The notes under the pieces were generated by a model. That model worked only from the letters and a program-made list of their open reading frames with translations, ran no database searches and had not been told where the DNA came from. Below, in pieces: positions 3 through 49,922 of a stretch of 64,000 nucleotides of DNA. Made by a program: the position numbers and the translations under genes. This stretch comes from Sialis fuliginosa (lineage: Eukaryota; Arthropoda; Insecta; Megaloptera; Sialidae), in contig OY540819.1 of the NCBI GenBank assembly GCA_961205875.1, forward strand, positions 3,536,501 to 3,600,500. Direction: 5' to 3'. The stretch's first letter is position 1, and the number at the start of each line of letters is the position of its first letter.

Positions 3-3000
3 CCATTGGAAAATGCCACAGCACATCATACAGAAAAATATGAGTTGGTTCATTCTAAACCAGCTATCCCTGTCCTTCGAAGAGGGCAAAGTTTCAATGT
101 TTCTATCAGATTTATAAATCGAGCTTACGATCCTTCAATGGATATAGTTCGCATCATCTTCAGTTTAGGTAAAATAATTTTATAAGATTCTATTATTTTA
201 ATTATCATTTTAAAATATTTAGGTCCGATACCAAATACTGTCAAAGGTACAAAGGGAGTTGCAAGATTAACTGAAAAATGTATTTTAGAAAATTCAAAAT
301 GTTGGTCTTCTAAAATTCTAAGTAATGCAGATAATACTTTAATGGTTGAAGTAAGTATTTTTAAAATAAATTTTATAAAACTAAATAATATATAATTTTA
401 AAGATATTTTCTCCCGTCGATGCACCAATTGGAGCTTGGCAAGTTGAAGTAGAAACAAGTATATTAAATTCAAAATTACATCCACGATTATTTGACTACG
501 AATATGATGTGTTCATATTATTTAACCCATGGCAGAAAGGTAACTAAAACTCAAACATTCTAGTTCTTAATTATATTCAAAATAAATTATTTTTATTTGT
601 TTAGACGATACAGTATACATGCATGAACAAAAACTGTTAGATGAATACATTTTAACAGACGTCGGTAAAATTTGGGTAGGACCCCATGGATCCTGCCGTG
701 GTCGAGAATGGATATTTGGACAATTTGATGCAGTAGTTTTATACGGCACCATGTTTATGTTGGAACGAGCAAACATCTGTTGGTCAACGTAAATCTAACA
801 ATTATCTTTTATAATAGAACAAATGATCTATAAAAATATAAAATTTCAGTCGCGGTGACCCGGTCAGATTAACTCGTACTATATCTAAAATGGTAAATTC
901 TAACGATAGAGATGGAGGAGTGCTAACAGGGAAATGGAATGGGTGTTACGATGGGGAAACTGCCCCTGCTGCTTGGACTGGCTCTGTGCCTATATTAGAA
1001 CAATATCTTGAAACTGAACGACCAGTTCGTTATGGACAATGTTGGGTATTTGCCGGTGTTGTTACAACAAGTAAGTTATTTTACATTTGATAAGTGACAT
1101 GATTTTTGGGGCTCCGAAGAAACCCTAGTTTTCACTCAAAGCTAAATAGCTCGTAAACTATATAAGTTAGAAATTTGAAATTTTTACTGAACATGTAAAA
1201 TGACACCCTCTAGTAAAATATATACAAATTTATTGAATAAATAATTTTTCAGGGGGGGGGGGGGGGGGCAATAAGAAGCTAAAGCTAGGTAATATTTTTT
1301 TTTATACCAAGGCATGTGGCACGTTAAAATGTATAACCAAACAAGCGGAATTTAACCCTTTTTCTATTTTTTTTTTAAATCCAAATTGGTGCCTGTAGGG
1401 GGCTTTAATGCAAATCCAAAAAAAAAAAAAAAAAATTGTATACCAAGACGTGTGGCATGTCAAAATAAACATCTCAAATATTTTTATTTTTTTTCGAACT
1501 CAAAAATGGCGCCTGTAGGGGGCTAAAAGCAGTATTTTATTTTGCCCTCCCCCCTCTAACTCTGTAACTACCGGCTCAAAAAATCTGAAAAAAAATTGGT
1601 AACGAGATTTTTGTGGGACTATCAACGACAAATACTAAAGTCAACAATATAATTTTAAATTTTGGAATTATAGGAAGGGGCGTCATAGAATTTTTTATTT
1701 TGATATCTAGGTAAGTGGGGTGTCAAAATATAGATCTCAATTAGTAGAACTTGACACTTTTTTATAATTTTTTCTGACTCAAAAATGCACCTGTATGTGG
1801 CTCCAAACATTCCACGTAGTACGTACTTCGGAACCCTTATGGCATACACTCGTGTATGTCTTGTTCGAATTATTTAAAATAAATATTTGCAAAATAGAAA
1901 TTAATCATTTTAATCATTGCAGTCTGCCGTGCATTGGGTATACCATCTCGAGTTGTATCAAATGTTGTTTCTGCTCATGATGCGAACGCTTCGTTATCGA
2001 TCGATAGTTATTTTGATGAAGATAATGAAGACTTGGGGTTTGATCCATTTAATACAAACAGTGATAAAGATAGCATTTGGAATTATCATGTATGGAATGA
2101 TGTATGGATGGCTCGTCTGGATCTACCTAAAGGTTTGATATTTAACCCTTAACTGATATCGTAAATTTTACTATGGTAACTGGTATCGTGGAGTATTTAC
2201 GGCCCCCACTGAAGATAAGCTAGTTTCAATAATCAACTAGCTTTTATAACCATTATTTTACTGAATTATCTTCTACGAGAGATCCTAATAAAGTTTTGAA
2301 AAATAACTTTAGGAAAGTTTTTAACACAAATATGTTTCATTCTTATCTAATATGAACTAATTAAGTTAAAAAAATGTTTATATGCATCTAATTTAAAAAT
2401 CAACTGGTATAGTGGGGGCTGGCTGGCCCTTAACATGCACGTATCTCCATCCTTCAGGGTGTTAAAGCACCGAACGTCCGCCTTATATATTTTATTTAAT
2501 AGGGTATGGTGGATGGCAAGCTATAGATTCAACCCCACAAGAAACCAGTGATAGTTTTTATCAGTGTGGTCCTGCTTCCCTTGAAGCAATAAGACAAGGT
2601 GCTGTTGGTTTAAATTACGACGTTGCATTCATGTTGGCTACAGTCAATGCTGATTTAATACATTGGAAGGTAGACCCTAATTGTGATTTGGGATATTCCA
2701 AAATACGAAGTGATAAATACCAGTATGTATTTTTTTTAAATATATCAATATTCAAATCTTAATTAAAAATTATTATTTTCAATGTAGTATCGGAAAGATG
2801 ATTTTAACCAAACGACCGTATTTATATGATCCAAATGGAGACAGAGATCGTGAAGATATTACTCTTCAATATAAAGGGCAAGAAGGGACTAAAGCTGAAC
2901 GATTGGGACTTTATAACGGTGTAAGAGAAGTTGAACGCGCTAAACGGTAAAATTGTTTTTTGTGTAGCAATCCATGTAGGAAATGTCAGCCTTGATGATG

Positions 3001-5470
3001 GGCCCAATATTGGGATACCAGTGTTGCTTTTTCGATATTGGTCCCAGTTTAGGCCAACCTATTCTTTACATAAAGATTGGGCTAACTCTAGTACAACAAA
3101 CCTTGGTCGAGTCTTGAACAATGTTATCATTTGTATCTTGGCCTAGTGTTGGCTAACATTGGGGAAAGCCGTAGCCAACTCTGGCTAGAGCACTTAAAAT
3201 CCGGAAAAACGGTTCGATTGATCAATTTCAAAATTTACAGGACTGTTGGGGGTACAATAAGCTGTTAAATCACCTGGCAACATTAATCTTCCCATCAATA
3301 TTTGTAAAGTAGCGATAGATTTACTAAAAGACCATAAAAGGTCATTTTTTTGTACTTTTTCAAACTAATGGTGAGGGTAAAAAAAATGTTTTTTCTAGTA
3401 AAGTCATGAAATGGTCTTGTAGGAAATTTATTCAAGTTTTTAAAACTGCCCTTAAATTTACTGTTTAATCATTAGTTGCTGATATATTGAGCCCGCAGAT
3501 CCTTAAATTTTTTTTTTTTAATTTTAAAAATTTTGTGTCCCACTATTTCTTATGATTGCGCAATAACCGTAACTCAAAAAAAATTATGCTAAAAAATCTC
3601 AAAACTAGAAACTTGAAGCTTTAAAATGCTTTTTTATTTATTTCGACACGACCATTTTTCACAAAGATACAGCACTTCAAAAAACACCCAAAAAAAATGT
3701 TTAATTTCTTCTTCCTTTAATTGTTTGGATGAGTGTATGTATTTTATTTTCTGTTTTAGTTTTTATGCTGTACTTGACTACCATCAAAATGATGTGGACT
3801 TTGATTTGGTAGAATTAGAACGTATCAATCTAGGAGAAAGTTTCAGCCTGACAGTTAACATTAAAAACAAATCAAAGGAATTTCGTAATATCACAGTCGA
3901 ATTGTCTGCTGCAAGTATGTTTTATACAGGAGTCAAGGCGAATATTATTAAAAAAGCTTGTGGTAATTTTAAAATCAAACCAAACTACAGTACGTATTTT
4001 ATTTAAAAATTAAATTAACTTTTATTTAGCTCACTCAAAAAATGACCAAATTATTACTTGCATGTAAGACATATTTAAAAGGTTTTTCCAGAAAATTCCA
4101 TACAGCATCAAAATCAATTTTTCGTAAACACCTACCTCTGACAGTTTTTTCTCTTCCTGGTCAAATTATATATTACATTAAAATCATTTAGATAGATTCC
4201 CGGGAAAAAATTTCAGATCTGAAGTGATCTCGGTTGAACTTCATTTTGGAACAAATCAGATCTTTGTAGATAAATAAACTTTTGTCTACCTTAAATAACA
4301 AATTAATACACATATACTATATAGAAACCTTGTTTATAATTTAATCAATTAAAAAAAAATTGTACAGAAACGTATTGAATGATATTTGAGGCCCGTGTAT
4401 TAAATTAATAAATAAATTAACAACTCACCCCCTGTCACAGATGAAGGGTTGTAATTGGTCTCATTCGATCCAGCGGGAAAAATTTCGGGATACTAGGTGA
4501 ATTTTTCTTTGTTTCGCTACTTATGGTATTCATTATAGAAAATCGTAAATATCTCGACTCCTGTGCTAGATAGATGGTTGTTTTGCCCCCCACACTCCTA
4601 GTATCCCGAAGTATTTTTCCCGCTGGATCGAGTGAGACCAATTACAACCCATCATCTGTGACAGGGGGTGAGTTGTGAATTTATTTATTAATTTAATACA
4701 CGGGCCTCAAATATCATTCAATACGTTTCTGTATAATTTTTTTTTAAATTGATTAAATTATAAACAAGGTTTCTATATAGGTAGTATATGTGTATTTGTT
4801 ATTTAAGGTAGACAAAAGTTTATTTATTTACAAAGATCTGATTTGTTCCAAAATGAAGATCAACCGAGATCACTTCAGATCTGAAATTTTTTCCCGGGTT
4901 GGTTAACCAACTTTATTTTATAATACTTTTTATAGGCGATAAGTTAACAATGGTAGTAACAGCTGAAGAATATAGTGATAAATTAGTTGAATATTGCATT
5001 ATGAAATTATTTGCAATTGCAACTGTAATTGAAACTCGACAAACATGGACAGATGAAGATGACTTCCAAGTTCTTGGGCCATGTATTTCTATGAAGGTAA
5101 AGTATATATGATTTATTATTTAATTATATAAAATAAACAAAGCCTACTAATAGTAAACTGCTTATAAAAATTAAAGATGGTAGGTGAACCAATTGCTGGA
5201 GAACTTATAAAAGTAAAGATGCATTTTGTCAATCCATTGAAGAGTACATTAACCAATTGTAAATTTAATTTGGCTGGATCTGGAGTGGTTAAAAACCGTG
5301 TTATACCGTACAGGGATATTGAACCGAATGAAAATGTAGTTTGTTATGAAAAGTTTGCACCAATTGAAGCTGGAGAGAAAAAACTCGTTGCTACGTTTTG
5401 TTCTAAAGAGTTAGTCGGCATAACAGGCTCGATTAACATCAACGTAGGTGAAGCAGAAAACATATATTAA
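3..5470 (+). CDS. Transglutaminase (annulin/hemocyte type), 3' eleven exons, 5'-partial
   Basis: Protein-glutamine gamma-glutamyltransferase: a Ca2+-dependent enzyme making isopeptide crosslinks between Gln and Lys side chains; in arthropods the family acts in hemolymph clotting, cuticle and cell-matrix crosslinking. Exons read with GT/AG borders and a continuous frame: 3-168, 223-350, 404-539, 605-788, 850-1070, 1923-2132, 2503-2722, 2788-2946, 3760-3989, 4936-5096, 5177-5470. They sum to 2109 nt, i.e. 702 residues plus TAA. Residues 1-143 are the N-terminal beta-sandwich (incomplete), 144-474 the catalytic core, 475-702 the two C-terminal barrels. Catalytic Cys269 lies in YGQCWVF, His334 in NYHVWNDVW, Asp357 in [10 protein letters not shown]; the His-Asp spacing of 23 matches human TG2. 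Trp234 (GKW) matches TG2 Trp241. Asn397, Asp399, Glu454 and Glu459 match the TG2 Ca2+ site (Asn398, Asp400, Glu447, Glu452), so the enzyme should be active. The start, and any signal or lipid anchor that would locate the protein, is outside the window. Confidence 0.95.
1108..1836 (+). mobile_element. Unclassified dispersed repeat in transglutaminase intron 5 (family J, copy 1)
   Basis: The ends are inverted relatives: GGGCTCCGAAG at 1108 and CTTCGGAACCC at 1826-1836. Inside are three diverged units at about 1299-1401, 1439-1523 and 1704-1802. Each starts ATAYCnAGG/ATATCTAGG with a (T)GTGG core and ends near GCnCCTGTAnGnGGCT. A second copy with one unit lies at 59338-59610. It shows no coding capacity and sits entirely inside the intron. 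Confidence 0.6.
1252..1268 (+). repeat. 17-base poly-G run
   Basis: Seventeen consecutive G in an otherwise AT-rich intron, inside the family J repeat. A homopolymer like this can form a G-quadruplex in the sense pre-mRNA and is also a site where read length is error-prone. Confidence 0.9.
2947..3759 (+). other. Transglutaminase intron 8, repeat-like
   Basis: This 813-base intron starts GTAAAA and ends TTTTAG. Around 2990-3200 it holds self-similar text (variants of GGGCCCAATATTGGG, CCAGTTTAGGCCAACC, TTGGCCTAGTGTTGGC), which suggests an old dispersed repeat. No boundaries were found. Confidence 0.4.
4199..4898. mobile_element. Foldback (long-inverted-repeat) element in transglutaminase intron 9
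   Basis: Two near-perfect arms, 4199-4497 and 4597-4898, are separated by a ~100-base loop. Both ends carry CCCGGG followed inward by AAAAAATTTCAGATCTGAAG and its complement; the inner ends are CTAGTATCCCG-type sequences. Differences between arms are few point changes or short gaps, so it is young or under conversion. It has no coding sequence. A TSD is not clear to me. It lies inside the transcribed intron, so the primary transcript should form a ~300-bp hairpin. Confidence 0.85.
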
Positions 5471-5950: not shown

Positions 5951-5970
5951 ATCAAATATTTGTAATTTTT

Positions 5971-6601
5971 ACTTTCCTATACCATGTATGTATATGAAAT
6001 ATACATATAGTATAAGTATAGTGAAGCCGATTTTTTTTCGAAATCCGGATTTTGATGGAATTATCCATTTTGACCTTCCCTTAATCCATTCTGACTATTT
6101 TCGCCATGACGTCTGTGTGTCCGTCTGTCGGTCTGTCTGTAAGCGCTGTAACTTAAATACGACAAATCGTAGAAGGGTGAAATTTTATATTTAAGTTTAA
6201 TTTTTGTCTGGGAAGAAAACGTCCTATTTTTGAAAACGATCATTCAACCGGATACGGATGTTTACCTATGTCGATTTTTGAATTTTTCGAATTACTCTGA
6301 AACAGTGCGAAATAGAGAAAAATGGGCAAGTTAAAAATTGTAGGTAATTTCAATATCTATAATTTATGTTCTATTCATTTTTTCGAAAAAAAAAATTTAT
6401 TATAATTCAAATGGTTCATAACAGAGGAGAAATATCTGCCATGGGTGTCATGGGACTTTCTTATACGTATTACAGAAATTGAACAGTGTGTGTGTTTGCC
6501 ATATATTATTCATTTTGTTCTATCTTGTTAGTTTGTTAGAAATGTTTTAATAAACAAAGAATCACGTATACAATTCACTGTTAGGATTACGTATAAAAAG
6601 T
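5971..6601 (+). mobile_element. MITE-like repeat with TCTG tract (family 1, copy 1)
   Basis: The ends are inverted relatives: ACTTTCCTATACC at 5971 and GTATAAAAAGT at 6591-6601. It contains GTGAAGCCGATTTTTTTTCG near 6023 and a short TCTG/TCGG tract near 6118-6140. It aligns by eye, reverse-complemented, over most of its length with 10460-11207. No coding capacity. Confidence 0.7.
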
Positions 6602-10459: not shown

Positions 10460-11207
10460 ACTTTCTTATACCTAACCTAACCTAACCTAACAGTGAATTG
10501 TATACGTGATTCTTTGTTTATTAAAACATTTCTAACAAACTAACAAGAAAGAACAAAATGAATAATTTTATATTTATATAACAAGTGATTTTTTTAAACG
10601 TATTAACTGAAAACGGATGTTTACTCTTGTAAATTTTTGGATTTTGAATTATTTTTGAAATAAGAAAAAAATGTTTTAGATAAAAAATGTCGAGTATGTT
10701 ATTATCTATAATTTATTCCCCATACATTTTTTCTCTGTTATGAACCATTTGAATTATAATAAATTTTTTTTTTAAATTCGTTTTTACAAAAAAGTGAATA
10801 GAACATAAATTATAGATACAGATATTACTTACATTTTTTAACTTGACCATTTTTCTCTATTTGGCACTGTTTCAGAGTAATTCTAAAAATTAAAAAATCG
10901 ACGTAGGTAAACATCAGTATCCGGTTGAAGGATCGTTTTCAAAAATAGGACGTTTTCTTCCCAGCCAAAAATTAATCTTAAATATAAAATATCAGCCTTC
11001 TACGATTTGTCGTATTTGAGGTACAGCGCTTACAGACAGACAGACAGACAGACAAACGGACACACAGACATCATGGCGAAAATAGTCAGAATGGATTCAG
11101 GGAAGGTAAAAATAGATAATTCCGTCAAAATCCGGAGTTCGAAAAAAATCGGCTTCACTATACTTACTTATACTAATGTATATTTCATATACATGGTATA
11201 AGAAAGT
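10460..11207 (-). mobile_element. MITE-like repeat with TCTG tract (family 1, copy 2)
   Basis: The termini are perfect 12-bp inverted repeats, ACTTTCTTATAC at 10460-10471 and GTATAAGAAAGT at 11196-11207. It is the reverse complement of 5971-6601 over most of its length, including the CAGA-rich tract at 11034-11052 and GATTTTTTTCGAAC-type sequence near the right end. It differs by a (CCTAA)4 expansion next to the left TIR. Non-coding. Confidence 0.8.
10471..10490 (+). repeat. (CCTAA)4, insect telomere-type motif
   Basis: Four perfect CCTAA units (TTAGG on the other strand). The related repeat copy at 6585 has only one unit at the homologous place, so this is a local expansion inside a transposon, not a former telomere. 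Confidence 0.9.
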
Positions 11208-11219
11208 AAAAATGTTGTA

Positions 11220-12370: not shown

Positions 12371-12899
12371 ATGACGTCAGTAACAAAGTATCACTGAAAT
12401 TATGATTTTAAATAATGAAATAGGTTAAAAAGATTCTCAAAAATGTATTTATTTTTATATTAAAAGTGAGATTAATATAATTTTTGTTACAATAAAAACA
12501 CAAAATATAGTAATCCGCCATGTTTGATGAAACACCAATCAGAGTGAATGACGTCACGGCTAAGTAAACATCATTTTTGTTTCATTAATATCTGCACTGT
12601 TTATAAATTATTTTGTGATTTTAAATTATCAATTTGCTCAGTTTTGTGTTACCAAAACTAAAACCGAAAAACATTAGCAATGAAACATAGATTTATTATT
12701 GTTGACAAGGAGTGTTTACATAGGCGTGACGTCAAAAATACACCATGACACCTGCGAGCGTTTTGGCGTCAAATTCAAAATTAGTTTTAAAAGGGTCAAT
12801 TTTTGTGATTAAACCTTTATTTTCTGCAGAAATAAGTTTTTTTTGGAAATAGGAGACACGTAAGATCATCATAAAATAGTTTTTTTTAAATTAGACACC
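12371..12899 (-). mobile_element. Dispersed repeat with TGACGTCA motifs (family B, copy 1)
   Basis: Near-complete reverse complement of 47608-48133. In this copy it carries TGACGTCA around 12550 and 12727, with another TGACGTCA at 12372 in the edge region, plus ACCAATCAGAG at ~12534 (CCAAT type). Ends in the other copy read GATGATGCC...GGCATCAT, so short TIRs are likely. Non-coding. Confidence 0.75.
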
Positions 12900-13189
12900 A
12901 TGCTTATTAGTTTAATCTATATGAAAATTGAAATAAACATTAGGGTAGTTTTGCATGTATTAAGGAAAATTTAAAATTGTCTGTGCAATATAAATATTTT
13001 AGTCCATCATTTTGCAAAGAATATTTTTTTTAATTTTTGTTTGTTTGTTTATTCCGATTTGACATAAAAACTATGCTATTTTCTAATATACTGTATCAGA
13101 AATGGACATATAGATTTGTTAATTTTTATTTAATTTAATATCAAAAATTAATTAAACGACCCGCCACTGGGTGTTTGTATACGAGATGA

Positions 13190-18790: not shown

Positions 18791-19000
18791 GGTGCGCTTT
18801 TAGTTTAATGTTTTTTAAGATTTAAGGTTTGGTTTTATGCGATACAAAAACCGTATTTTCTATTTTATTGTTATTTCAACTAAATTGTTGATTTATTGTT
18901 TTTCTTTCGGATTGAAAAACTATATCGTAGTTTTCATTAGGTTCAATTCTCGTTTACAGTTCTGTTATATTGTAATTTAAATAAATCAAATATATGTATT

Positions 19001-19320
19001 GCTTCCCCGCAATATCGAAGATACGAGAAGCTTTGTGATCATTTTAGAATAAGACAAAAAAATTGTTCTTCGATTTTAAAATTTTAAACTGATCTTTCCG
19101 TTTCAGGTCAAGCAAAACACTGTCTGTCTGTCTATCTGTCCGTCCGTCTGTCTGTCTGTGTGTGTGCTGTTCCCTGAATCCTTGTCATACGCATAACTCA
19201 TGAATCACTGAACCGATATTAATGAAACTTGGTTGGATGGTTGAGTCTGGTTTGAGGACGGTCCCATTTCAATATCATCAAAATCTTGTGTCAGGGGGAG
19301 GGGTGACATACGTTTTTTGG
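19001..19320 (+). mobile_element. Dispersed repeat with TCTG tract (family L, copy 1)
   Basis: It starts GCTTCCCCGCAATATCGAAG, which with GATACGAGAAGC forms a short hairpin. It continues through a TCTG-rich tract at 19121-19159, then CCTGAATCCTTGTCA and CTGAACCGATATTAATGAAA. Related, same-strand copies lie at 29386 and 48431. The class is unknown. No TIRs seen. Confidence 0.75.
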
Positions 19321-24051: not shown

Positions 24052-24802
24052 AAAGGACCCCGCTGTTTTTGATAGGGAAATGGCTTTCAGTCAATCTCTT
24101 TGAAACTAACTGGAAAATATTCTCTAAATCATCCCGATTAAAAGTCTCAATGGTCGCAACCGCCTAAGTTCCCGAGGTCTCGCGCAAAAAGCTGTTTTGT
24201 ACCTAATACTGCAATAAAAAAATCGATATAGGACAGGATTTCCCAAGTTCAATATTTAATTTATTATAACAAATGGAAGAAAACTTCAAATACAAAAGTT
24301 GTCAGGCTAGACAAGCAGCATATTTTTAAAATAGTTACATTTATATAAGGTGTCCCATAAGTGTGTTACAAATCAAAGTTATATTTTTATGACAACTAAT
24401 TTTCTATTGTTTTTATTTTACAATTTAATATTTTTAATAATATCGCTAGTAGCTGGCGCTGACAGCACTACACATACCTTAACATGTTTTATAAAAACTT
24501 TATTATAATCCATAAAACAATTTGCTATAGAACTTGCAAACTTTAACAACATAATAATCTAAAAATTAAATAAACAAAACGATACATAAAAATTAATTTC
24601 TTTGTTCAAAATGTCCTGTACTATATCGATTTTTTTTTATTGCATTATTAGGTATAAAACAGCTCTTTGCGCGATACCTCGGTAACTTCGGCGGTTGCGA
24701 CCATTGAAACATTTAATCGGGATGATTTAGAGAATATTTTCCAGTTGATTTCAAAGAGATTGACTGAAAGCCATTTCCCTATCAAAAACTGCGGGGTCCT
24801 TT
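24052..24802. mobile_element. Non-autonomous element with ~185-bp terminal inverted repeats
   Basis: Left arm 24052-24236 starts AAAGGACCCCGC, right arm 24612-24802 ends GCGGGGTCCTTT. Long matching stretches include ATAGGGAAATGGCTTTCAGT and GATTTAGAGAATATTTTCC or their complements. The interior (24237-24611) is AT-rich; a TAAGGTGTCCCATAAGTGTG sequence at 24348 resembles a mariner-type end. TSD not evident. Confidence 0.8.
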
Positions 24803-26377: not shown

Positions 26378-26385
26378 TTGTACAG

Positions 26386-27328
26386 TAGGGTGGAGTGAAA
26401 ATTTTTTTTTTTCGAATCTTCAAAACGCTATATGCGCAAAATTTGCATTTGTATATATATACTTAAAACACCTACCGAAGGAATTTGTAATTGGATATCA
26501 TCCTGAGGTTCCTAAATGATTTTATTTATTAGAAAAAAACATAAACTTTTGGGCATTATATCTCGGTAAAGGGGCAAGATATTTGAATGCGCAATAATTT
26601 AAATTAAAGAGACATTCAGTACCTTTAAAATGATATATAACAGTCAAACATTTATTATAGTTAATTGTTTGAAAAATGCCTTTAAAAAAATATTATTTTT
26701 ATAAAAAAAATCAGCATCATTTAAAAAATAATGATTAACTATAAAAAAAATGTATAGTTACATATTATTTTAAAGATTGCACTGGATTGCTCTTTAATTT
26801 AAATTATTGCGCATTCAAATATCTTTCTCCGTTACCGAGATATTATGCTCTAAATTCTGTTAATTTAATGAACTTAGAGTGTTACATATATCTCGGTAAC
26901 GGAAAAAGATATTTGAATGCGCAATAATTTAAATTAAAGAGCAATCCAGTGTCTTTAAAATAATATGTAACTGTAAATTTTTTTTATAGTTAATCATTAT
27001 TTTTTAAATGATGTTTATTTTTTTGTTTTTTTATAAAAATAATATTTTTTTAAGGGCATTTTTCAAACGATAAACCATAATAAATGTTTAACTGTTATAT
27101 ATCATTTTTCTCTTTAATTTAAATTATTGCGCATTCAAATATCTTACCCCGTTACCGAGATATAATGCCCAAAAGTTTATGTTTTTTCTAATAAAGAAAA
27201 TCATTTAGGAACCTCAGAATGATATCCAATCACAAATTCCTTCAGTAGGTGTTTTAAGGATATACAAATGCAAATTTTGCGCATATAGCGTTTTGAAGAT
27301 TCGAAAAAAAAATTTTCACTCCACCCTA
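26386..27328. mobile_element. Giant palindromic element, TAGGGTGGAG ends, 8-bp TSD
   Basis: The termini are TAGGGTGGAGTGAAAATTTT and its complement, flanked by TTGTACAG at both 26378-26385 and 27329-27336, an exact 8-bp TSD. The whole 943 bp folds around ~26865. Each arm contains two opposed copies of a block with ATATCTCGGTAACGG and ATTTGAATGCGCAATAATTT, giving four copies in all. It has no reading frame. The 8-bp TSD fits hAT, P or MULE-type transposition; the family is undetermined. Confidence 0.9.
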
Positions 27329-27336
27329 TTGTACAG

Positions 27337-29385: not shown

Positions 29386-29775
29386 GCTTCCTCGCAATAT
29401 CGAAGATACGAGAAGCTTTGTGATCGTTTTAGAATGAGACAAAAAATGTTCTCCGATTTCAAAATTTTAAATTGATAATTTCGTTTCAGATCAAGACAAA
29501 TACTTTTCGTTCCCTGTCTGTCTGTTTGTCCCCTGAATCCTTGTCACACGCATAACTCATACACCACTGAACCGATATTAATGTAACTTGTTGGATGGTC
29601 CCATTTCAAAATCATCCTGTGTAAGAGGGAGGGGTGACATCCCAAAATATTAATTTTTTCAAGATATTTTAAGAACGACACATGTAACGTGAAAATTTTA
29701 TAGAATCTTTTTTGTAAAGCGTTCAATTTTCTAAAATATAGGTCAACAACGTTTGTTGTAAAATATTCCCTTACA
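29386..29775 (+). mobile_element. Dispersed repeat with TCTG tract (family L, copy 2)
   Basis: Starts GCTTCCTCGCAATATCGAAG and continues with GATCGTTTTAGAATGAGACA, a short TCTG tract, CCTGAATCCTTGTCACACGC and CAAGATATTTTAAGAACGAC. Longer than copy 1 and collinear with copy 3 to AAATATTCCC. Non-coding. Confidence 0.75.
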
Positions 29776-31109
29776 AAGATTTATCTCACTTTGCTTTAAA
29801 AAATCGTTTTTTGTCTTTTTAAATTGATATTTACTTTGACATATTAAATGTCATTTTGATGTTTGTATAAATTGTCAAAAAATTAAAAATATACGAAAAA
29901 ATAATCAGTTGCTTTTTAAGAAAAAAACTATTTTTTTAGTAAAATTGTATAAAAATTAAATGGTTAACCAATCTGAAAACTTTATCGGTTTTTATTTAAA
30001 TTGTTCAATTATTAACTACCTTTGGTGAATTTAGTACGAGGAAGCACTGTGAATTTACTTGGCAGATGTTGTTTTTTGCTTTTTGTTTAGAAATAAGACA
30101 AAGATTTGACGAAATAGTTTATATTTTTTTGTTGTAAATTCTGAGACAGTCATTTATAATATCGAGGCGAGAAAGTTTTACTTCCATGTTCCAAAGGAAA
30201 TGGAAGTATTGTAATACCATCGAAAAATCGTGTCCGATAAAATGACAAATTCTGATTGTACTAACTTCAAAACGTAAAGAAAAGTTAATTTCCGCATGGC
30301 GGCTGTGCTTGTGGCTGTGTGCCTGTGCGGATGTAGAATTTTCTTTCGTTCACGATAACTACTGTAAAAATGCACCGATCTGAATTATTTTTGGGGAAAA
30401 TGTTTGTCTCAGTGAGTACTCCAGACCTATTGATTTTGGTGCTAATCGGATCAGGGGTTTTGGAAATATTCGAAATTTTGTAATTTTTTTCGTCTAAAAA
30501 GTGAACATTGCGAGTATTATCTCACTAATTTTGATAAGATTTGGTACATTTGCAGTTTAATTGAATCTAAGGGACATTTATTATTTGTACGTGCCCAAAC
30601 AGCCATTAAAGGGGTGAAAAACACTTAAAATTTGAATTTTAAATACTAATTAATACGTCATTAATTCATGTTTAGTTGTTCTACGAATGTGTATTATGTT
30701 TTTGACATTATATATTTATATACAAATGGCAATAACTGCTGTAACCGTCGTAAGTATATATGTTTTTTATGTATTACGAAATTTATATTCATAGTAGTAG
30801 ATTATATTGATAAAATATTTTTCAAAAAATTTATATTTAAAAATTATTTAAAAAGATAGAAAGAAGTCATGTATGGTTCTCCATACCGATATTTAGTTTG
30901 GTGTGAAGCCATAATTTTATATGTAGATAAATCAGCCTCGATTTCTGATTGATTATAGTAGTCAAGTTTTACTCACAACCGTATTTTCTGAATTTATCAA
31001 TCAATATTATTAAATATACTTCATACCGATTCGGCTACAAATAGCGACTCTTACTGGAGTATTTCTAACAAATACACATACTAATTGTAAGTACATTTGC
31101 AGGCCACGT
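29776..31109. other. AT-rich spacer
   Basis: No gene or bounded repeat. A patch at 30290-30340 (GGCGGCTGTGCTTGTGGC) is richer in GC but has no further signal. Confidence 0.35.
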
Positions 31110-41959: not shown

Positions 41960-42698
41960 CATAGACATAGAGAATGGACCACGCATCTGACTTGAACACA
42001 GAGCCGTGTCAAAAGAAAGAGATAGAAACAGGTTTGGAATATATGTACTTGTCCTTTTTTAAACAGGAGTGTAACTATTTCATTCTTAGTCCCGAATATT
42101 AAAAATATTCATAGATATTATCATATATTAATCTACTGTTGATTAATATATGATATTATTTTACTATATATGTATATAAAGAGGTTAAAATAATTAACGT
42201 TATAAAAAAATTTTTTTAAAAAAAGAAACATTTATTGATTTCTAAATAATATAAGTTTCGAATTTTTTTAACCAATTTTAATATTTTGTTCTAATATCAA
42301 AAAAAATATTTAAAATTTTGTTAAGTAAATCTTGTATGTGCTCTTTGTAAGTGTAGCAATCCACCTCATCATTTTGTAGCAACTACATGGGAATTGATTT
42401 AAAACTATTTTTTATTAATATATATTTAATATTTTTGGTAGCAAAAATGTTATTTTCCCGGAATATCCGTTCATAATTTTTCAAATTTTCTATCAGATCA
42501 AACACAAAAATCACAAGATAGATATACAAAAATATATCGGACAGAAATACTACCCTGAACTATAGTAAGCTACCAATCAGGATCTTAGAAAAAGATATAG
42601 ATATATTCCAAACTACACTGCATCTCTCTCTCACTTTTTGAACAGTTGTTACACCATTGTGTTAATACAGAATTTACTGTCCATTCTCTATGTCTATG
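41960..42698. mobile_element. Non-autonomous transposon, perfect 20-bp TIRs, 8-bp TSD
   Basis: CATAGACATAGAGAATGGAC at 41960-41979 and its exact complement at 42679-42698 are flanked by GTTTTGCG at 41952-41959 and 42699-42706. The 739-bp interior is AT-rich and non-coding. The 8-bp duplication suits a hAT-type element, but the terminal sequence is not one I recognise. Confidence 0.92.
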
Positions 42699-47500: not shown

Positions 47501-47607
47501 CAGTAGAACACTGATTTATCTGTCATAATCGAGAACGAGAAAGTGTAGAATTATAAGCTAGTACTAAAACTTTATACTTTTTTGATTAATTCAATATTTG
47601 ATAATAG

Positions 47608-48133
47608 GATGATGCCTAATTTTTAAAAACTATTTTATGATGATCTTACGTGTCTCTTATTTCCAAAAAAATGCATATTTCTGCAGAAAATAAAGGTTTA
47701 ATCACAAAAATTAACCCTTTTAAAACTAATTTTTAATTTGACACCAAAACGCTCGCAGGTAACATCGCGCATTTTTGACGTCACGCTTATGTAAACACTC
47801 TTTGTCAACTATAATAAATCATTGTTCCATTGCTAATGTTTCTCGGTTTTACTTTTGGTAACACAAAACTGAGCAAATTGATAATTTAAAATCACAAAAT
47901 AATTTATAAACAGTGCAGATATTAATGAAACAAAAATGACGTTTACGTAGCCGTGACGTCATCCACTCTGATTGGTGTTTTATCAAACATGGCGGATTGC
48001 TGTATTTTGCGTTTTTATTTTAACAAAAATCATATTAATCTCGCTTTTAATTAAAAATAAATACATTTTTAGAATCTTTTTAACTTCTTTCATTATTTAA
48101 AATCATAATTTCAGTGATTACTGGCATCATGCC
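47608..48133 (+). mobile_element. Dispersed repeat with TGACGTCA motifs (family B, copy 2)
   Basis: Reverse complement of 12371-12899 over its length. Ends GATGATGCCTAAT and TTACTGGCATCAT suggest short TIRs. Contains TTTTGACGTCACGC near 47774 and CCGTGACGTCATCC near 47951. Non-coding. Confidence 0.78.
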
Positions 48134-48430: not shown

Positions 48431-48775
48431 GCTTAAGATACGAGAAACTTTATGATCGTTTTAAAATGAGACAACATTTTTTTAGGTCAAGACAAACATT
48501 TTTCGTTTCGTGTCTTTTTGTCTGTGTGTCTACCCCTTGAATCCTTGTCACACACATAACTTATGAACCACTGAACGGATATTAATGAAACTTGGTTTGA
48601 TGGTTGATTCTAACTTGAGGTAAGGGGGAAGGTTACATCCCAAAATACTTATTTTTTCATTCAAGATATCTCAAGAACGACACATGTTACGTAAAAATTT
48701 TATACAATCTTTTTTTAGAGCATTCAATTTCCTATGCTATAGATTTACAACGTTTGATGTAAAATATTCCCTTTA
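48431..48775 (+). mobile_element. Dispersed repeat with TCTG remnant (family L, copy 3)
   Basis: Collinear with 29386-29775 (GAAACTTTATGATCGTTTTA, CCTTGAATCCTTGTCACACA, CAAGATATCTCAAGAACGAC, AAATATTCCC). It ends just before the target duplication of the palindromic element at 48790. Confidence 0.72.
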
Positions 48776-48789
48776 AAATATATATGTAT

Positions 48790-49914
48790 TAGGGTGCTTT
48801 TTTTTGCGACTATTTTTTTTTCACTCCCACCTCAAAATTTTCTTGGAAATACCTCAAAAAAAACTCCCTGAAAATTTTGAGCCCTTAATATTAATATTAA
48901 GTACTCGCTTTCAGCGTTTAAAGATTTCCCATTGAAAATACACGTAAACTTGAACTTTTTTTTTTTACTTTTTATAGCTCAGAGGCATTTTATCCTATTT
49001 GAACGTTTGAAAAACCAAATTACGCAGAATTAAATATTCTATAAAAGTATTTATTGCAACGAAACTGTAACTTACAAGGGTGAGACAGTACAGGTGATTA
49101 AAGTCAAATTTTTCATGAATTTCTTGTTTTTTCATTGTTATTTCATAAATGGCTGAAAATACAGAAAAAGTTTAAATAAAAAAGTTGTAGCAAATTCAAT
49201 TTTCTTCAAAAAAGATCCTGAGCATCAAATCTCTATTATTGATATTTTTCAAGATAATAAGCTTCTTGTTTTTTATGATTTACGATTTTCATGAACATAA
49301 AGAACATCTATTTGAGGTTATTTACCTCTTCTTTTCTTCTTGACTTTGAAAAAGTAGATAATAACTTTTAAAAAAAATTGTTTTTAATAATTAGAGTCGC
49401 GAATTCATGAAAATCGTAAATCATAAAAAACAAAAAGCTTATTATCTTGAAAAATATCAATAATAGAGATTTGATGCTCAGGATCTTTTTTGAAGAAAAT
49501 TGAATTTGCTACAACTTTTTTATTTAAACTTTTTCTGTATTTTCAGCCATTTATGAAATAACAATGAAAAAACAAGAAATTCATGAAAAATTTGACTTTA
49601 ATCACCTGTACTGTCTCACCCTTGTAAGTTACAGTTTCGTTGCAATAAATACTTTTATAGAACATTTAATTCTGCGTAATTTGGTTTTTCAAACGTTCAA
49701 ATAGGATAAAATGCCTCTGAGCTATAAAAAGTAAAAAAAAAAAAGTTCAAGTTTACGTGTATTTTCAATGGGAAATCTTTAAACGCTGAAAGCGAGTACT
49801 TAATATTAATATTAAGGGCTCAAATTTTCAGGGAGTTTTTTTTTAGGTATTTCCAAGAAAATTTTGAGGTGGGAGTGAAAAAAAAAAAATAGTCGCAAAA
49901 AAAAAAGCACCCTA
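48790..49914. mobile_element. Giant hairpin element, TAGGGTGC ends, 8-bp TSD
   Basis: Arms 48790-49295 and 49404-49914 are almost identical over ~505 bases around a 108-base loop. Termini TAGGGTGC and GCACCCTA are flanked by ATATGTAT at 48782-48789 and 49915-49922, an exact 8-bp duplication. No coding frame. The end and the TSD length match 26386-27328, although the interiors differ. Confidence 0.92.
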
Positions 49915-49922
49915 ATATGTAT

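Follow-up and report, generated by a model that had tools for sequence, protein, structure and literature searches.

Among the systems closest to the locus described here are the MITE-like families of Anopheles gambiae, noncoding elements of which six of 32 clusters are palindromic, with lengths of 430 to 1678 nt; in that account, the inverted ends of the 32 clusters measure 18 to 204 nt and no known element is related to them (PMC3212995). MITEs are recognized as noncoding elements with numerous near-identical copies that carry inverted ends and target duplications, and hAT elements are described as having short inverted ends of 5 to 27 bp (PMC3517528). In Drosophila willistoni, the hAT MITEs Mar and Vege are nonautonomous and AT rich, with inverted ends of 11 to 12 bp and 8-bp duplications, for which Mar shows the Buster-type consensus nnnTAnnn (PMC3517528), while Hermes makes 8-bp duplications with a preference for nTnnnnAn (PMC10368747). 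Tetris, Tm1, and Galileo have a middle flanked by inverted arms that are long or composite and contain internal repeats, and they belong to the Mutator or P superfamilies (PMC4079207, PMC3169594, PMC4168063). Their duplications are 8 to 10 bp in Tetris (PMC4079207), 9 bp in Tm1 (PMC3169594), and 7 to 8 bp in Galileo, a member of the P superfamily with GTATTAC as its duplication in D. willistoni (PMC4168063). Foldback elements are described as mostly Mutator, with exceptions, and in two of three complete Tetris copies the repeats group by element, which was read as possible homogenization (PMC4079207); Foldback (FB) elements themselves have long composite arms with tandem repeats (PMC3169594). 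In the housefly, the male-determining locus M-V and its dispersed look-alikes are palindromes with inverted ends and direct duplications at several genomic places, M-V having 9-bp duplications, a 3046-bp spacer, and genes of its own (PMC11252125). Finally, gene conversion between arms is well known from the large palindromes of sex chromosomes, whose two arms it keeps alike (PMC3723533, PMC8981503).

The element that we analyzed, a 1125-bp palindrome of Sialis fuliginosa, resembles the palindromic families of Anopheles gambiae in being a noncoding palindrome of an insect genome but differs from them, as far as they are described, in its arms of ~506 bp, in exact 8-bp duplications of the hAT pattern, and in allowing a test of arm correction (PMC3212995). 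With Mar and Vege it shares its nonautonomous, AT-rich nature and 8-bp duplications, although their inverted ends are far shorter and the duplications of the Sialis family follow nTnnnnAn instead of the Mar consensus (PMC3517528). Its long arms around a middle recall Tetris, Tm1, and Galileo, yet it has no tandem array, and unlike M-V it carries no genes and has 8-bp duplications and a short loop (PMC11252125). Compared with sex-chromosome palindromes, its arms are small (~0.5 kb), and it is a dispersed transposon with many replicate copies (PMC3723533, PMC8981503). Our search of the literature, by the titles and opening lines of abstracts listed outside subscription journals and repeat databases, met no hAT family with comparably long arms, and we claim no priority. 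The element is ordinary in kind, a real and young copy from a family of mobile palindromes, in which the test for arm-to-arm correction is unusually clear. Taken together, it is very probably a young nonautonomous palindromic (foldback-like) DNA transposon that is moved by a hAT-type transposase and whose two arms undergo mutual correction within single elements. The dispersed copies, exact ends, duplications, two empty sites, youth, and lack of coding capacity behind this reading are observed, and its statistical part is that the two arms of single copies share a derived base at a frequency well beyond that of independent mutation.

Structure of the palindromic element

The window, that is, the whole stretch of DNA analyzed, comprises 64,000 nt of Sialis fuliginosa (GCA_961205875.1, OY540819.1, positions 3,536,501 to 3,600,500; G000:C11:3536501-3600500 in our genome labels), and the genome searched was the assembly of 392,097,322 bases in 20 contigs. 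A preliminary description of the locus had reported a 1125-bp hairpin with an exact flanking duplication, arms of ~505 bp, and a 108-base loop; its coordinates and ends proved exact, and the arms measure 506 and 511 bp. The palindrome lies at window positions 48790 to 49914 and ends exactly in TAGGGTGC and GCACCCTA. As delimited by alignment of the arms and of the family, the left arm (506 bp, 48790 to 49295, plus strand) starts with TAGGGTGC and is followed by the 108-nt loop (49296 to 49403) and by the right arm (511 bp, 49404 to 49914, minus strand), an inverted copy of the left arm that terminates in GCACCCTA. The target site duplication ATATGTAT, which fits nTnnnnAn, stands at 48782 to 48789 on the left and at 49915 to 49922 on the right. 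The aligned arms span 512 columns, 502 of them identical, with 3 mismatches and 7 gap columns, every gap falling in A/T runs. When the 64 kb were compared with themselves, the element was the highest-scoring inverted match, ending ~10 bp or less from the element boundaries. Its longest reading frame has at most 58 amino acids, so that it has no coding capacity, and no tandem array of the kind described for FB arms was reported within 48790 to 49914.

We also scanned the window for exact 8-bp duplications outside exact 10-bp inverted ends spaced 60 to 5000 bp apart. This yielded six matches, three of them with self-complementary duplications and one (41960 to 42698) with other ends; TAGGGTG ends were found only at 48790 to 49914 and at 26386 to 27328. 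The latter is a second palindromic element of 943 bp with the ends TAGGGTGGAG and CTCCACCCTA, delimited by the scan and by comparison with the first element. It is nearly loop-free, has TAGGGTGG ends, and is flanked by exact 8-bp duplications, TTGTACAG, at 26378 to 26385 and 27329 to 27336, again of the form nTnnnnAn. The two palindromes share their design and the TAGGGTG end; beyond TAGGGTG, their similarity did not rise above shuffled controls (scores of 31 and 29 versus a mean of 29.7 and a maximum of 43, n = 200). The arms of the second palindrome contain further internal inverted and direct repeats.

A dispersed family with target duplications and empty sites

Searching the genome with the left arm returned at least 81 matching stretches, with the best 40 of 205 candidates scored. 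An end pattern with 23 specified bases matched exactly at 178 places genome-wide (86 forward and 92 reverse), which would correspond to some 90 elements or more, whereas the control gave 0 and 0. Among the 100 listed of these 178 ends, 74 form 37 pairs spaced 922 to 1131 bp apart and 26 are unpaired, 9 of which come from copies already in the first set; the other 17 mark further members of the family, in which the second end is mutated (including in its run length), truncated, or deleted. In total, 57 copies were examined: a first set of 39 from the best-scoring 40 of 205 candidates, the 17 loci at unpaired ends, and the window copy. Since the first set was drawn from the best-scoring matches, it is biased towards copies resembling the window copy. 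Four of its 39 copies (L019, L023, L032, and L040) have one arm truncated or interrupted, and a fifth (L034) has an internal deletion; with these five dropped, the first arm set comprised 35 copies, and the second comprised 48, with L084, L088, L094, and L100 also dropped.

TAGGG/CCCTA ends are present in the window copy and in most fetched copies that retain both ends, the exceptions being L025, L092, and L097, in which an end base is changed, and L096, which has CGCCCTA. The loop matched well in 54 of the 56 fetched copies. Of the two others, L086 (G000:C1:42668240-42669510) has a different, longer loop and arms that reach further than in the window copy, which may represent an older structure, and L100 (539 bp) has lost its middle and loop to an internal deletion while retaining an exact duplication, which is not counted among the 48 copies scored below. 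Among the further incomplete copies, L088 consists of the left arm and loop only, and in L084 and L094 the outer part of the left arm is missing. Outside this genome, one exact 21-mer had no match in viral contigs and one 25-mer none in prokaryote genome contigs, and blastn gave no match in phages. Noncoding, with 178 ends and exact duplications in 35 of 48 copies, the family has the features of MITEs, and at 1.1 kb it is longer than most MITEs.

An exact 8-bp duplication flanks 35 of the 48 copies from both sets that retain both ends, a group slightly different from the 48-copy arm set in that it includes L034 and excludes L089. Position 2 is T in 34 of these 35 duplications, position 7 is A in 32, and both hold (nTnnnnAn) in 31. 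For the first set including the window copy, the figures are 26 exact duplications among 36 both-ended copies and nTnnnnAn in 24 of the 26 (binomial P of 1.4e-19 on flank composition), and the flanks are unrelated to one another apart from one 23-bp match. The 13 copies without an exact score are L086, whose locus ends too early to be scored; L097, whose first base is changed and whose duplication was exact in a separate scoring; L013, L015, and L034, with one mismatch each; and eight others.

Two clean empty sites were found in uninterrupted relatives of the host repeats: one for L093 (target ATGTAGGT; relative at window positions 5966 to 6042, 95%) and one for L099 (target ATGATAAT; relative at positions 2827 to 2958 of L076, 87%). 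We did not count a second relative of the L093 site (window 11131 to 11212), which is missing four bases at the target, or a candidate for L025 (66%), which has a gap at the junction. For the window copy no empty site was found; its left flank is an interspersed repeat whose similarity breaks off at 48785, and its right flank lacks the continuation of that repeat. This repeat (48459 to 48785) also occurs at 29465 to 29784, partly at 18997 to 19257, and in L080, and its similarity ends four bases outside the element, within the target duplication.

The family copies with duplications and empty sites are ordinary cut-and-paste insertions, which bears out the proposal of a mobile insertion made in the preliminary description. 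The hairpin at 48790 to 49914 is confirmed as a real, recently inserted copy of a dispersed mobile family that has no gene of its own and numbers many near-identical copies. A chance origin is ruled out because the dispersed copies have duplications of their own.

Age and correction between the arms

The near-identity of the arms had been ascribed initially to recent insertion or ongoing arm correction, and arm identity alone cannot tell a young palindrome from a corrected one. Recent insertion is supported by the distances: the 35 full first-set copies have a mean substitution distance of 0.54% to their consensus, and the window copy is 0.45% from it, with its arms 0.59% apart. Insect mutation rates lie near 3e-9 per site and generation, which puts the age of the family very roughly at one to two million generations. 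Ongoing correction was borne out for the family, as detailed below, but not for the window copy, which outside two common polymorphic sites has no symmetric base and three one-armed derived bases; youth alone therefore explains its near-identical arms.

A family of many copies reveals correction directly, through bases that both arms of a single copy have and that all other copies lack. In the consensus, the arms are perfect inverted copies of each other except for one C/T polymorphism and one run length, and across 48 copies the arms diverge by 0.73% on average within copies versus 1.01% between copies. Leaving out the two common sites (76 and 220), we counted 21 derived bases that a copy has in its left and right arms alike, whereas independent mutation predicts 0.142. 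When arms were shuffled among copies, the mean was 0.74 and the maximum 4, with none of 2000 shuffles reaching 21. The 35 first-set copies gave the same picture (15 symmetric bases versus 0.086 expected; shuffled mean 0.37, maximum 3, 0 of 2000 reaching 15), and so did these 35 copies with the two common sites included (32 versus a shuffled mean of 9.7 and a maximum of 17 in 1000 shuffles). At least one symmetric base occurs in 18 of the 48 copies, and 12 symmetric variants are private, each found in a single copy and absent from all other arms. Because derived bases shared by both arms far exceed independent mutation, correction between the arms of single elements is supported at the level of the family. 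The test itself covers correction after insertion and correction in a parent element alike, and read polishing that mixes the arms could likewise yield symmetric bases.

A two-state model fitted to 21 symmetric and 158 asymmetric of 24,029 cells puts correction at ~118 times mutation (bootstrap 72 to 184), or 133 times without two copies that have clustered changes; the model is simple and the rate rough, but it can be tested with further copies and reads. A stronger reading is possible, and we hold it tentatively: the ~500-bp arms of a hAT-mobilized foldback family may correct each other in place at ~100 times the mutation rate per site, so that the hairpin would be actively maintained. If so, the dispersed copies would provide natural replicates for studying how palindromes are converted in an insect-like nuclear genome. 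Counting against such strong correction, 158 asymmetric cells persist across the 48 copies, the homopolymer lengths of the two arms have no clear link within copies (four runs, smallest P of 0.079), and a gradient of correction towards the loop was not significant (Mann-Whitney P of 0.33 to 0.40; inner versus outer halves, Fisher P of 0.065).

Instead of arising by correction after insertion in single copies, the symmetric bases might mark subfamilies derived from several perfectly palindromic masters. The two common sites would fit this, their states being shared by many copies: site 76 has 14 CC, 18 TT, 11 C left/T right, 2 of the reverse, and 3 other among the 48 copies, and site 220 has 33 GG, 11 AA, and 4 other. 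Moreover, with 57 copies examined, variants that appear private may occur in further copies. However, the 12 private symmetric variants were each found in no other arm, and a perfectly palindromic variant master would itself require arm-to-arm copying. We therefore judge descent from several masters rather unlikely, and prefer correction between the arms of one element, whether within the inserted copy or earlier, in the lineage that led to it. Such correction would occur when the palindrome folds or when its arms pair during repair. The states at site 76 look like those of a mixed master with correction going either way.

Superfamily and source of the transposase

The type of enzyme that moves the family is inferred from the length and pattern of the duplications and from the ends. 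The element would be cut and pasted by its TAGGGTGC ends through a hAT-type transposase supplied from elsewhere in the genome, and insertion would generate duplications of 8 bp in which the second base is T and the seventh is A. The 8-bp duplications (35 of 48 exact, with two clean empty sites) are those of hAT elements, the nTnnnnAn pattern (31 of 35) is that of Hermes, and the TAGGG/CCCTA ends follow the hAT end rule, YARNG. Since the arms, at ~506 bp, are atypical of hAT elements with their short inverted ends, we call the family hAT-like in movement and do not assign it to hAT.

Mobilization of the same kind of element by a P, Mutator-type, or Merlin transposase is improbable by comparison. 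These transposase families, Merlin included, make duplications of ~8 bp, as would be needed here. Known foldback-like elements lend this alternative some weight, as the long-armed Tetris, Tm1, and Galileo are filed under Mutator or P (PMC4079207, PMC3169594, PMC4168063) and long arms are atypical for hAT (PMC3517528). The duplications, however, fit the Hermes pattern in 31 of 35 cases (PMC10368747) and not the GTATTAC of D. willistoni Galileo (PMC4168063), they are 8 bp long versus 9 in Tm1 (PMC3169594), and the TAGGG ends agree with the hAT rule. Movement by a hAT-type enzyme thus remains the preferred reading, and it suggests that hAT-type target duplications may accompany a foldback-like architecture.

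The genome does hold hAT genes, with 150 scored matches (the best 150 of 613 candidates) to the hAT dimerization domain PF05699; at some of these loci the frames have 602 to 641 amino acids, and at one 1144. The preliminary description had called for a search for a transposase gene carrying the same ends, and none was found among 100 of the 178 ends and 36 of the 150 scored hAT matches. No transposase-bearing element with TAGGGTGCTTTTTTTT ends was seen, as no pair among the 100 listed ends is spaced more than 1131 bp apart. The 36 hAT-domain loci compared, some of them overlapping, have no DNA similarity to the window element at an E value of 0.01; the sole match in this comparison, 32 bp long, linked L079 with the second palindrome. 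Within 30 hAT-domain loci extended by 1.5 kb on each side, TAGGGTG or CACCCTA occurs in L053, L060, L072, and L077, but at none of them do such ends form a pair with an exact duplication.

Several observations concern the hAT loci themselves. At L082, a 2705-bp hAT element (1274 to 3978) with TAGTGTCCGACCGA ends and an exact nTnnnnAn duplication, ATTATGAT, surrounds the hAT domain. At L079, a 1224-bp element (133 to 1356) with TAGGGTTTGCAATC ends and an exact duplication, GTCACGAG, adjoins the hAT domain without enclosing it and is another candidate nonautonomous hAT-like element. A hAT-domain family is spread over many contigs with many equal-scoring matches, most of which have one TAA inside a 113-amino-acid frame, and G000:C14:6029937-6038200 contains five hAT-domain matches in ~8 kb, all in a single orientation.

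Unlikely alternatives: selected hairpin or assembly artifact

Hairpin siRNA loci are recognized by 21- to 22-nt RNAs from their arms. The preliminary description had proposed the element as a strong candidate source of hairpin-derived siRNA. The RNA of the element is predicted to fold into a near-complete hairpin (-800.5 kcal/mol), and if it were transcribed through, it would form a near-perfect duplex of ~505 bp. That selection maintains it as a functional hairpin locus for siRNA production is nevertheless very unlikely, as it is one of many interchangeable dispersed copies; the window has no Rfam match at the gathering score, and no Pfam domain was found in 10 of the 17 reading frames listed at 40 to 60 kb. 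That an assembler produced the second arm from one real arm, the objection raised in the preliminary description, can practically be dismissed: nothing was found in its favor, and although the single locus alone could not exclude it, the palindrome stops at the element boundary with an exact duplication there, its arms differ at 3 sites and in 7 gap columns, and the many dispersed copies, with their duplications and the two empty sites of other copies, are ordinary cut-and-paste insertions and therefore refute it at the level of the family.

Other features of the window

Inverted-repeat pairs also occur at 4199 to 4898 (arms of ~300 bp, 94%) and at 24052 to 24802 (arms of ~190 bp, 93%). Positions 12390 to 12909 and 47602 to 48118 hold inverted copies of an interspersed repeat of ~520 bp that are 92% alike, and the repeat is also present in L052. 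Pointing to an insect genome are CCTAA repeats, the insect telomere motif, from about position 10,471, and an exon for a transglutaminase C-terminal domain (PF00927) at 3617 to 4006.
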